64,000 nucleotides of DNA, from assembly GCF_024436055.1 (NCBI RefSeq), contig NZ_JANFNH010000024.1, forward strand, positions 1 through 64,000, in the 5' to 3' direction. This DNA is from Streptantibioticus rubrisoli (GTDB taxonomy: Bacteria > Actinomycetota > Actinomycetes > Streptomycetales > Streptomycetaceae). How positions within the stretch are numbered: the first letter of the stretch is position 1; each line of letters starts with the position of its first letter. The position numbers and the translations under genes are program-made. A model generated the notes under the pieces. That model did not search any database, was not told the origin of the DNA, and saw only the letters and a program-made list of their open reading frames with translations. Of the stretch, positions 41,131-61,998 are shown piece by piece.

Positions 41131-42262
41131 GCTGGCCCTCCATCAGGGAGACGAAGCGGTCGAACAGGTAGGCGGCGTCGTGCGGACCTGCGGCTGCTTC
41201 GGGGTGGTACTGGACGCTGAACGCGGGGGTGTCGAGGCACTCCAGGCCCTCGACGACATCGTCGTTGAGGCACACGTGGGAGACCCTCACCCGCCCGTAC
41301 GGGGTCTCGGAGTCGCGGTCGAGCGGCGCGTCCACGGCGAAGCCGTGGTTGTGCGCGGTCACCTCGACCTTGCCGGTGGAACGGTCCTGCACCGGCTGGT
41401 TGATGCCGCGGTGACCGTACTTGAGCTTGTACGTGCCGAAGCCGAGCGCCCGGCCGAGGATCTGGTTGCCGAAGCAGATGCCGAAGAACGGCGTACCGCG
41501 CTCCAACACGCCCCGCAGTACGGTCATCTGGTGGTCGGCGGTGGCCGGGTCACCCGGGCCGTTGGAGAAGAACACGCCGTCCGGGCGCACCGCGTAGATG
41601 TCGTCGAGCGTGGCGGTGGCGGGCAGTACGTGCACCTCGATGCCGCGTTCGGCCATCCGCTGCGGGGTCATCGCCTTGATGCCGAGGTCGACGGCGGCGA
41701 CGGTGAGCTTCCTGGTGCCGACCGCCGGGATGACGTACGGCTCGGTGGTGGCCACCTCGGCGGCCAGGTCGGCGCCCTTCATCTGCGGGGACGCCTGCAC
41801 CTTGGCCAGCAGAACCGCTTCGTCGGCGATCGCCTGGCCGGAGAAGATGCCGACCCGCATCGCGCCGCGCTCACGCAGGTGCCGGGTGAGCGCGCGGGTG
41901 TCGATGCCGCTGATGCCGACCACGCCCTGGGCGGTCAGTTCCTCGTCGAGGGAGCGCTGGGCGCGCCAGTTGGAGGAGACCCGGGCCGGGTCGCGGACCA
42001 CATAGCCGGAGACCCAGATGCGCTTGGACTCCGGGTCCTCGTCGTTGACGCCGGTGTTGCCCACGTGCGGCGCGGTCATGACCACGACCTGGCGGTGGTA
42101 CGAGGGGTCGGTCAGCGTCTCCTGGTAGCCGGTCATGCCGGTGGAGAACACCGCCTCACCGAAGGTCTCCCCCACCGCCCCGTAGGCACGGCCGCGGAAG
42201 GTGCGGCCGTCCTCCAGGACGAGTACGGCGGGGATCCGGTCTCCCCTGGTGGAGGTGGTCAT
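41123..42262 (-). CDS. carA: Carbamoyl-phosphate synthase small subunit
   Basis: A 379-aa glutaminase subunit that supplies ammonia to CarB. The class I amidotransferase domain has the catalytic Cys in [15 protein letters not shown] and the His-Glu pair in [11 protein letters not shown]. The N-terminal CarA domain ([16 protein letters not shown]) is intact. ATG at 42262 follows AAGGAAGG and overlaps the upstream gene stop by 4 nt. Confidence 0.96.
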
Positions 42263-42945
42263 CGTGCGCCTTCCTTGCTCGTGTTCAGGTTGCTCAGTGC
42301 GGTGACCCACGCGGGGTGCTCGGCGGGGTGCTCGGAGCGGAAGCCGGAGTCGATCAGCCGGTCGCCGTGCTGCCAGGTGATCACCAGCAGCCCTCCGTCG
42401 GGGACGACCTTGCCCGCGATGCCCTTGTCCAGCCGGGCGCCGCGCAGCGCCTCGGCCGGGATGAAGAAGTCGGCGGCGGCCGGTCGGCGTACCGCCACGC
42501 CCTGCTCGGTGAGGGTCAGCTCGACCAGGCTGCGGGTGCCCAGGCCGCGCGCGGCGATCCGGTCCAGCCAGTCACCGGCGGTGGTGCTGGCGTGGTAGCG
42601 GCCGGACATGGTCAGCAGCGGCGGCTCGCCGCCTCCGTTGAGGGTGGTGGTGGGCGACGGGTGGGCCAGCAGCGGCGGCTCGCCGCCTCCGTTGAGGGTG
42701 GTGGTGGGCGACGGGTGGGCCAGCAGCGGCGGCTCGCCGCCTTCGCCGAGGTCGGCCGGGATCGTCGGCAGCTCGGGCAGGTCCGACTGGCGGGCGGCCC
42801 GCTTGTGCCAGGCGCGCCACATCAGCCAGTAGACGAGGGCGATGAGGGCCAGCAGCGCGAGGACCCACAGCAGCCGGTCGCCGAGGTCGGTGACCTGCGC
42901 GGAGTGCTTGTCAGCGGCCTGCGTTACGTACGTTGTCGCGTTCAC
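42259..42945 (-). CDS. Membrane-anchored PH-like-domain protein of the pyr operon with in-frame repeats
   Basis: A 228-aa protein with one transmembrane helix (about 25-41) and a C-terminal PH-like domain (about 112-215). An equivalent gene sits between pyrC and carA in mycobacteria and corynebacteria; function unknown. Here residues about 68-111 are two full and one partial copies of an 18-residue unit ([18 protein letters not shown]). This linker insertion is DNA-repeat derived and shares a 30-bp core with an array inside the ATPase gene near 60.3 kb. The start is GTG, overlapping the pyrC stop by 4 nt. Confidence 0.85.
42613..42739. repeat. 54-bp-period intragenic repeat, locus 1
   Basis: Two full 54-bp units (42632-42685, 42686-42739) and a preceding 19-bp partial. 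Each unit begins with 30 bases, CCTCCGTTGAGGGTGGTGGT plus GGGCGACGGG, identical to locus 2. The variable part contains the palindrome GGCGGC-tc-GCCGCC. The array length keeps the reading frame. Confidence 0.9.
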
Positions 42946-60089: not shown

Positions 60090-61649
60090 ATGCAGCACGG
60101 TGCCCCGTTCGGTGATCCCGCTGACGACGCTTTCCCCTTCGGTTCCTTCGGCCTGCCCGCCGAGTCGGACCGGCTGGTGGGCCGCGAGGCCGAACTCCTG
60201 GCGCTGCGGGGCCTGTTGGACCGGTCCCGACTGGTGACGGTGACGGGGACCGGCGGGGTCGGCAAGACCCGGCTGGCACTCACCGCCGCAGGGGCGGCAG
60301 CGGCTGATGGAGCCTCGGTTGAGGGCGGTGGCGGGCGACGGGAGAACAGCGCAGCGGCCCGCAGGGCCTCCGTGGCGGGCGGTGGCGGGCGACGGGAGAA
60401 CAGCGCAGCGGCCCGCAGGGCCTCCGTTGAGGGTGGTGGTGGGCGACGGGAGAACAGCGCAGCGGCCCGCAGGGCCTCCGTGGAGGGTGGTGGTGGGCGA
60501 CGGGTGGGCGCGCAGGATCGGTTCTGCGATGGCGTGCGGTTGGTGGAGCTGTCCACGGTCCGGGACGGCCGGATCGTGGAGTACGCGGTGCTGGAGGCGC
60601 TCGCGGTCACCGACCGCTCCGGCCGCCCGGCGCTGGCGGTTCTGGCCGAGCACCTCGCCGACCGTGAGCTGCTGCTGGTGCTCGACGGCTGCGAGTACCT
60701 GGTCGCCGAGTGCGCGGCACTCGCCGACGAGTTGCTGCGCCGCGCGCCGGGGTTGCGGATCCTGGCCACCGCGCGCCGCCCGCTGGGCGTCGAGGGCGAG
60801 TCCATACTGCCGCTCGGCCCGCTGGAGCCGGGCGAGGCGGTACGGCTGTTCACGCGGCGGGCGGCGGTCGCACCGCCGTTCGCGCTCACCGGTGCCGACC
60901 GGGCGGCGGTCGACGAACTGTGCCGTCTGCTGGACGGCCTGCCGCTCGCCCTGGAACTGGCCGCGGCACGGCTGCGGACGCTGCCCGTGGAGCGGATCGC
61001 GGACCGGCTCGCCGAGCGGTTCCGGCTGCTGGCGGGCGGGGAACGCACGGCGCTGCGCACGGCGATCGGCTGGAGCCATGAGCTGTGCACCCCGGCGCAG
61101 CGGCTGCTGTGGGCCCGACTGTCGGTCTTCGCCGGGGAGTTCGACCTGGACGCGGTGGAGTACGTGTGCGCTGGCTCGGGGCTGCCCGCGGAGCAGGTAC
61201 GGGAGACGGTGGCGGAGCTGGTGGCGTACTCCGTGGTCGTCCGGCACGGTGAGCGCCATCGGATGCCGGAAGCGGTACGGGAGTACGGCGCCGGGTGGCT
61301 GGAGGTACTGGGTGACACCGAGCGGCTGCGGCGGCGGCACCGGGACTGGTACCTGGGCCTGGCCACCTCCTGTGAGCTGGACTGGTCCGGGCCCGGGCGG
61401 GCGGAGGCGGCGGCACGGATCGCCCGCAACCTGCGGAATCTGCGGCTCGCCCTGGGGTACGCCCTGGAGCGGGCGGCCGACCCGCACATCGGCCAGTACC
61501 TGGCGGGCAGCCTCTCCTTTTACTGGATCGCCCGCGGCCTCCTGCCGGAGGGACGGTTCTGGCTGGACCGCGCCCTGGCCCAGCCGGGCACCAACGAGGA
61601 GGCCCGCACGAAGGCTCTGCGGGCACTCGCAGCCCTCAACGCGGCGTAG
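60090..61649 (+). CDS. STAND-type P-loop ATPase with in-frame repeat insertion
   Basis: A 519-aa NB-ARC-like ATPase, related to AfsR/LuxR-type regulators. Walker A is GTGGVGKT (53-60), Walker B LLLVLDGC, and a GLPLALELAAAR motif is present. No DNA-binding domain is seen at either end, and the C-terminal repeats are short. Right after the Walker A helix, residues about 75-143 are three full and one partial copies of an 18-residue unit ([18 protein letters not shown]) encoded by 54-bp DNA repeats. The start lacks a ribosome site. Its target is unknown. Confidence 0.82.
   Translation: MQHGAPFGDPADDAFPFGSFGLPAESDRLVGREAELLALRGLLDRSRLVTVTGTGGVGKTRLALTAAGAAAADGASVEGGGGRRENSAAARRASVAGGGGRRENSAAARRASVEGGGGRRENSAAARRASVEGGGGRRVGAQDRFCDGVRLVELSTVRDGRIVEYAVLEALAVTDRSGRPALAVLAEHLADRELLLVLDGCEYLVAECAALADELLRRAPGLRILATARRPLGVEGESILPLGPLEPGEAVRLFTRRAAVAPPFALTGADRAAVDELCRLLDGLPLALELAAARLRTLPVERIADRLAERFRLLAGGERTALRTAIGWSHELCTPAQRLLWARLSVFAGEFDLDAVEYVCAGSGLPAEQVRETVAELVAYSVVVRHGERHRMPEAVREYGAGWLEVLGDTERLRRRHRDWYLGLATSCELDWSGPGRAEAAARIARNLRNLRLALGYALERAADPHIGQYLAGSLSFYWIARGLLPEGRFWLDRALAQPGTNEEARTKALRALAALNAA
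60313..60510. repeat. 54-bp-period intragenic repeat, locus 2
   Basis: Units at 60313-60366, 60367-60420, 60421-60474 and a partial from 60475. Unit 3 shares its first 30 bases exactly with locus 1; the partial fourth also shares the following TGGGC. The variable half holds the palindrome GGCCC-GCA-GGGCC. Confidence 0.9.
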
Positions 61650-61742
61650 GCGCTCCGCTGGGGGTGGTGCGGCGATGTGCCGTCGCTCGTGTGCGGCACC
61701 ATCGTCGCTGGTCGCGCAGTTCCCCGCGCCCCTTCAGGGCGA
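61650..61742 (+). repeat. Dispersed intergenic repeat, copy C
   Basis: Begins at the ATPase stop with GCGCTCCGCTGGGG and ends with CCCCTTCAGGGCG, like copy B, but its middle is diverged. It includes GCTGGTCGCGCAGTTCCCCG, the widespread streptomycete form. Confidence 0.7.
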
Positions 61743-61828
61743 AGGCAAGGCGTCCGTCCGCGCACGGAGCCCCAGGGCCCATCGCGGGTCCAGACCCCAA
61801 ACCCCAAGCCCACCAAGGGGGTCAGGGC

Positions 61829-61958
61829 GCAGCCCCGGAAACAGGGCCCGGGACGCAGCCCCAGAAAGGGGGCCGGGGGCGCAGCCCCAGAAACAGGGCC
61901 CGGGACGCAGCCCCAGAAAGGGGGCCGGGGGCGCAGCCCCTGAAACGGGCCCGGGGGC
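61829..61958. repeat. Five tandem 26-bp repeats upstream of the rpsD 3' end
   Basis: Units of the type GCAGCCCCAGAAACAGGGCC + CGGGAC alternate with a GGGGGCCGGGGGC-ending variant, five full copies. Each unit can fold on itself (GGGCC/GGCCC-type). The region between 61743 and 61998 holds no gene. Confidence 0.88.
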
Positions 61959-61998
61959 GGAGCCCCCGGGGGAACCGGGTTGCCCAGATGACCGTAGG

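Follow-up and report, generated by a model that had tools for sequence, protein, structure and literature searches.

The window, the stretch of 64,000 nucleotides of Streptantibioticus rubrisoli that was analysed here, carries two tandem arrays of a repeat of about 54 bp, each inside a protein-coding gene, together with a possible remnant of a further unit. The genes and repeat units are listed below, with the bit scores of covariance model R1, which was built from 102 units of many genomes.

42259 to 42945, minus strand: coding sequence of a protein of 228 aa with a TM segment and a PH domain, between pyrC and carA, host of the antisense array (open reading frame; Pfam bPH_11, E 9.5e-45).
42610 to 42667, plus strand: repeat unit 1 of the second array (R1, 61 bits).
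42668 to 42721, plus strand: repeat unit 2 of the second array (R1, 54.5 bits).
42722 to 42742, plus strand: the hairpin segment CAGCAGCGGCGGCTCGCCGCC for the third time, with no core (sequence; alignment).
60090 to 61649, plus strand: coding sequence of a STAND/AAA-type ATPase of 519 aa, array host (open reading frame; lacks the C-terminal part of its orthologue).
60292 to 60344, plus strand: repeat unit 1 of the ATPase array, hairpin degenerate (R1, 47.2 bits).
60346 to 60398, plus strand: repeat unit 2 of the ATPase array (R1, 49 bits).
60400 to 60452, plus strand: repeat unit 3 of the ATPase array, containing the 30-bp core identical to the array at 42.6 kb (R1, 65.4 bits).
60454 to 60510, plus strand: repeat unit 4 of the ATPase array (R1, 73.8 bits).
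61641 to 61669, plus strand: possible remnant of a further unit, hairpin and start of the core (R1, 17.2 bits, E 0.0044, weak).

The covariance model resolved the ATPase array into four head-to-tail units (60292-60510) and the array of the PH-domain gene into two (42610-42721), and all six units had E values of at most 2.7e-12. Tandem Repeats Finder returned a period of 54 for both, with 3.6 copies and 94% matches at 60312-60504, and 2.4 copies and 100% matches at 42613-42742. The results confirmed an earlier note on this DNA, which had placed the ATPase array in frame after the Walker A helix; it lies directly 3' of that helix, in the P-loop domain. The note had also described an invaded ATPase, and the gene is indeed of STAND type, but it is truncated and not demonstrably a working ATPase. 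Its Pfam AAA_16 match (E 6.6e-5) is under the curated cut-off, and the open frame of the orthologue in genome G001 is 679 aa long and runs beyond the stop of the window gene, which ends about 160 residues before the end of that orthologue. The close match in G002 covers part of the protein and has an internal stop, and the orthologue looks broken in one sister species. The TAG stop of the window gene (61647-61649) lies inside the possible remnant unit, which matched R1 at model positions 11-39 only; this weak match suggests that a broken repeat unit supplies the stop codon. At the array site the G001 orthologue is empty and reads AAASGSQDRF. Insertion may have been tolerated because the gene is truncated and its orthologue apparently broken in one sister species. 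As the window gene may be decaying, the insert beside Walker A tells little about a working ATPase. Another tandem repeat (61825-61966, 26/52 bp, GGGCGCAGCCCCAGAAAC...), by sequence unrelated to the 54-bp family, lies between the truncated gene and rpsD.

In the PH-domain gene the repeat is carried on the strand opposite to the gene. Most of the family, G001 and G002 included, have no insert in this gene. G017 and three Streptomyces genomes have single inserts in the linker that holds the array; these occupy two different positions and are presumably independent. In the alignment, the hairpin segment CAGCAGCGGCGGCTCGCCGCC is present once in the empty G002 allele, and the 19-base target segment occurs once in G002 and three times in the window's genome. 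A hairpin segment that is already there in the empty allele does not suit a simple picture in which a whole unit inserts. This site suggested that only the core is inserted, into a hairpin already in place; as a general rule that was rejected, since at sites such as C53 and those in the Nocardiopsis genes the empty allele lacks a hairpin. The same linker carries a different palindromic insert, CCTCCCAGCCGCCAGGCTGGGGGAG, at locus L207 (G022), and therefore seems permissive for small elements.

That both genes hold one repeat family, on opposite strands relative to the gene, agrees with the earlier note and was borne out by the covariance model and by the identity of a 30-mer. The copies at 42632-42661 and 42686-42715 are identical to 60421-60450 and differ by one mismatch from 60475-60504, while shuffles of the window gave 0 matches. 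The GC palindromes had been read correctly (GGCGGC-TC-GCCGCC at 42.6 kb, GGCCC-GCA-GGGCC in the ATPase gene), but they do not end the unit; each stands at the 5' side of a core.

Around the core, positions from about -31 to +30 exceeded background in 167 loci. The unit, of about 54 bp, consists of a purine-rich leader, CAGYGG or similar, a hairpin, TCCG, the near-invariant core TTGAGGGYGGTGGYGGGCGACGGG 3' of the hairpin, and YGGGC; when the ends were compared by eye on alignments, the leader was purine-rich and the tail GGGYGGGC. The hairpin has a stem of 4-6 bp with a GNA or GNNA loop. Watson-Crick stems of at least 5 bp were present in 65% of 241 units, compared with 7% of shuffled segments, and the 241 units contained 51 different stem sequences. 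All five modelled stem pairs vary on both sides, with 102 double-change cells versus 36 +/- 4 after shuffling. On an alignment that was not structure-fitted, the covariation score was 0.537; shuffles scored 0.167 +/- 0.019 and a slid helix no more than 0.150. The sequences are related, and the shuffles therefore give no strict probability. Of 175 triloops 142 were GNA, and of 18 tetraloops 17 were GNNA. DNA mini-hairpins of exceptional stability follow a published rule, a GNA or GNNA loop on a G-C stem (PMC4686876), and the units have this form, with two or more G-C pairs closing the loop. The GNA triloop class fits DNA rather than RNA.

The core follows the pattern GGG-N-GG-N-GG-N-GGG, in which G is conserved and N varies. 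In a relaxed set of 133 units, whose search pattern left core positions 7 and 13 free (C or T), the G positions were kept at about 98% and the three positions between tracts at 74, 88 and 48%. Judged from the sequences, such conservation is what a G-quadruplex with one-base loops would permit. A second stem within the core, CCGT/ACGG, showed no covariation at its variable positions by inspection of alignment A1 and was omitted from the model. Folding of the whole unit as DNA, in a calculation without G-quadruplexes, was no better than for shuffles. No Rfam family matched at E<=1, and the core sequence was not found in the literature searched, which included few subscription journals; the repeat is thus not described in the sources searched, and an older description may exist.

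The genome-wide search for the core that the note had proposed revealed further copies. In the 7.26-Mb genome there are 39 cores with up to three mismatches (reversed control, 0) and 72 model matches at 44 loci (E<=1e-4), including a third array on the same contig at 83.9-84.1 kb, beyond the window. Two congeners had 21 and 64 short-core matches, and in a second genus of the family two genomes had 22 and 25; the remaining members of the family mostly had few or none. Among the GTDB matches listed, the exact core was found in Streptomyces, Streptantibioticus, Kitasatospora, Nocardiopsis, Amycolatopsis, Glycomyces and Allosalinactinospora. At E<=1e-3, 66 of 297 genomes of the class had a match, many by a single weak one, and matches at E<1e-8 were confined to families f1, f19 and f6. 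One Nocardiopsis genome contained 84 matches, and 24 and dozens were counted elsewhere. Outside arrays the copies are mostly single, they lie both between and inside genes, and their core is near-invariant across orders. Three contigs of the window's genome terminate inside arrays (C33 at its start, C91 and C40 at their ends); C33 and C91, which have a linker in common, may be adjacent. As short-read assembly breaks off at these repeats, copy numbers are lower bounds. At five loci of Nocardiopsis algeriensis (L083, L087, L088, L136 and L141) the unit is surrounded by further repeated sequence, GGCGCCCGAACAAGGG... and ...AAGCGAAGCGGAGGCCC, and may be part of a composite with a second palindromic repeat.

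Empty sites in sister species, which the note had advised looking for, are present at both window arrays. Orthologous sequence was available for 19 other loci, and for eight of them (C53, C20, C6, two in C23, C21:84 kb, C42 and C60) one or both of two congeners clearly have an empty site; several others occur in each of the three species in a partly decayed state, and older copies decay in the same way as the sequence around them. The purK gene carries a single in-frame copy (L014, C23:13.4 kb of the window's genome, G000), and its G002 orthologue is empty. In two genes of Nocardiopsis genome G316, a single copy brought a net gain of exactly 54 bp each, and the 5' flanks are 97-98% identical to the nearest empty relative. 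A few bases were replaced at both sites, the junctions show no clean target duplication, and at some junctions sequence looks replaced, not cleanly joined. A target-site duplication of constant length was not seen in empty/filled pairs: the PH site has 19 nt, the other comparisons 0-8 nt or none. Unit number changes too: C38 has two units in G000 and one in relatives, and at one coding site sister species of Nocardiopsis differ, with 4 units (L365 in G346), 1 (L324 in G316) and 0 (L331 in G348). The latter site is a good natural series for expansion studies.

Such imprecise junctions and asymmetric ends, without inverted repeats or constant target duplication, would also be left by a short transcript that was reverse transcribed and then inserted. 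The triloop class suits DNA, however, and we regard an RNA-mediated route as improbable.

A functional site, such as a regulatory RNA, a protein-binding site or a translation-control hairpin, could instead have been placed repeatedly by selection. The covarying stem and the core near-invariant across orders would suit this, and so would the mreD/mrdA junction, where nine genomes from several genera have the element directly 5' of the mrdA start (L021, L101, L138, L118, L159, L316, L054, L294 and L289). In some Streptomyces the ATG start of mrdA falls within the hairpin stem (ATGGGC-GCA-GCCCAT), with a possible effect on translation. But the presence of the element is patchy over the 297 genomes, many of the 66 positives resting on a single weak match, orthologous sites are empty and older copies decay like their surroundings. 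In addition, copies lie on both strands of coding genes, no Rfam family corresponds to them and GNA triloops suit DNA, not RNA. Repeated placement by selection is accordingly rated as unlikely, though less so than the RNA-mediated route.

Genes outside the window were called from open frames and GC3, a test which the ATPase array itself failed by 0.01 in GC3. In the three congeneric genomes it placed 10 loci inside genes: in G000 four are sense and three antisense, and the three in G001 and G002 are antisense. The repeat is read in at least four frames, one resulting peptide being RRPPPPSTE, and each in-gene copy adds about 18 amino acids in any frame. The earlier note had held that a fixed 54-bp period keeps the frames open. 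The period is not fixed: spacings ranged from 47 to 57 bp in 57 arrays, 54 being the commonest (40/101). The frames are nevertheless kept, since in genes all 16 spacings were multiples of three, versus 52 of 75 elsewhere (Fisher p = 0.009). At least four frames together with spacings of three exclude selection for one peptide and show frame filtering after insertion. Convergent protein sequence, selected as a Gly-rich or Ser/Ala-rich loop, would predict the in-frame inserts in loops and linkers; it is refuted by the frame data, as the same nucleotides give at least four unrelated peptides and also lie between genes, and its probability is close to nil.

Spread of the repeat at the DNA level, as the note had argued, is well supported by these sequence comparisons because of the many copies (39 near-exact cores, 72 model matches), the empty orthologous sites in sister species and the at least four frames with spacings of three. 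None of the outcomes that the note had named as refuting it occurred; there are further copies, empty orthologues and at least four unrelated peptides.

How the arrays grow is a separate question. Unit length in arrays is tightly bounded (47-57 bp), and the linker before the second unit reached a match of at least 80% to the 5' flank of the same array in 23% of arrays, compared with 0.1% of random pairs. Local slippage is probably how arrays grow, with partial to moderate support, because the flank match is limited to 23% and part of the flank may belong to the element. Replication strand showed no bias (38 of 87 on the leading strand in two Nocardiopsis genomes, with topology and terminus assumed), and a lagging-strand mechanism is therefore not supported. 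CEB1 is a G-quadruplex minisatellite, whose unit is a G-tract motif and whose copy number changes. The 54-bp unit is similar in its G tracts and variable copy number, but is also dispersed as single copies. One could ask whether the family is a minisatellite only, that is, unstable tandem repeats of local origin dispersed by ordinary recombination or gene movement. Its array period of 47-57 bp and the differing unit number between relatives are consistent with this. The same core in many single copies in unrelated genes, the empty sites with 54-bp net insertion and the loci without common flanking homology argue against it, and we give this explanation little credence.

The family was then compared with known small repeats. 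The palindromic elements of Rickettsia (RPEs) are short and non-autonomous, and occur both in intergenic DNA and as in-frame parts of unrelated protein genes (PMC2229807). The same is seen here, where one DNA sequence stands in frame in unrelated protein genes, apparently by DNA-level spread, and the note's comparison holds in principle. It does not extend to size, ends, structure or taxon: RPEs, known from Rickettsia, are largely palindromic, of 105-146 bp and with terminal inverted repeats, whereas the units of about 54 bp have no such palindromic form and are asymmetric, with an internal hairpin of 4-6 bp and a G-tract core, in head-to-tail arrays in actinomycetes. Bacterial MITEs (Correia, ERIC, RUP, YPAL) are likewise non-autonomous, dispersed and sometimes fused to reading frames (PMC2229807), features shared by the 54-bp family. 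The latter is half their size or less, has no terminal inverted repeats (ends compared by eye on alignments) or consistent target-site duplication, and has no longer parent in its flanks; over 206 loci with 1.5 kb on each side, flanks were alike only if the loci were orthologous. PARCELs are palindromic tandem repeats of DNA in coding sequence, spread between taxa (PMC2996958). They conserve a protein motif of 25 residues, while the 54-bp family conserves DNA, not peptide.

REPs and REPINs are also small hairpins with compensatory changes, in dispersed copies and clusters (PMC3116915), and the hairpin could be a REP that owes its mobility to a REP-associated tyrosine (Y1) transposase. However, the Y1 transposase is absent in the window's genome and in 7 of 11 other rich genomes (G001, G002, G009, G272 with 84 copies, G119, G246 and G147), the units are direct, head to tail, with no inverted doublets, and copies also lie inside genes. 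An origin of this kind is largely refuted and appears very unlikely.

MIRUs are actinobacterial repeats of about 50-100 bp, dispersed and tandem, with variable unit number. Some 54-bp copies lie, like MIRUs, at overlapping ATGA stop/start codons, but many are inside genes. A MIRU-like DTGA target was rejected, as this context was not enriched overall (11 of 223 loci upstream vs 6.9 expected). DTGA, with overlapping stop/start codons, was observed on both sides at six loci (L035, L048, L050, L068, L071 and L291); flanking by DTGA is a property of MIRUs and is not general in the 54-bp family. In kind, then, the family resembles RPEs, REPINs, MITEs and MIRUs, and for each of them at least one defining feature that was looked for is missing.

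The explanation that we favour, and hold to be somewhat better than evenly probable, is local expansion of a tiny non-autonomous mobile repeat of about 54 bp, dispersed in Streptomycetaceae, Nocardiopsis, Amycolatopsis and a few other actinomycetes and inserted in either orientation. A candidate trans-acting machinery would insert single copies, probably on single-stranded DNA, recognising a single-stranded structure made of the hairpin and the G-tract core. Action on single-stranded DNA is suggested because the GNA/GNNA loops obey the rule for stable DNA hairpins and the G tracts of the core are kept while the bases between them vary. Arrays would follow later, when the folded G-rich strand slips back in replication and the segment is recopied. 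In genes, only inserts of a multiple of three would survive, in loops, in linkers or in genes of little importance, of which the truncated STAND gene may be an example. Several results count against this explanation: no mobilising enzyme was found, terminal inverted repeats are absent, target duplication is inconsistent and some junctions look replaced. The lack of strand bias, the unremarkable folding of the whole unit as DNA, the flank match in only 23% of arrays and the hairpin segment in the empty PH allele count against it as well. More tentatively, and with clearly lower probability, the family could represent a new class of mobile DNA of about 54 bp, recognised by a single-stranded mini-hairpin and G-tract structure of fixed fold but free stem sequence, moved by no known type of transposase, without inverted repeats or target duplication, and seeding arrays that become new protein segments in any frame.

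Small repeats that invade genes in frame have been known mainly from Rickettsia, and they are now seen in free-living, antibiotic-producing actinomycetes of several orders, with the successive steps (empty site, one copy, array) visible in sister species. The family explains some odd inserts in conserved proteins (purK, the PH-domain protein), as well as the insert that recurs where mreD meets mrdA and the breaking of contigs in draft assemblies. It provides a natural setting in which to test how tiny DNA without its own transposase spreads, whether structure rather than sequence is recognised, and how new protein loops arise from selfish DNA.
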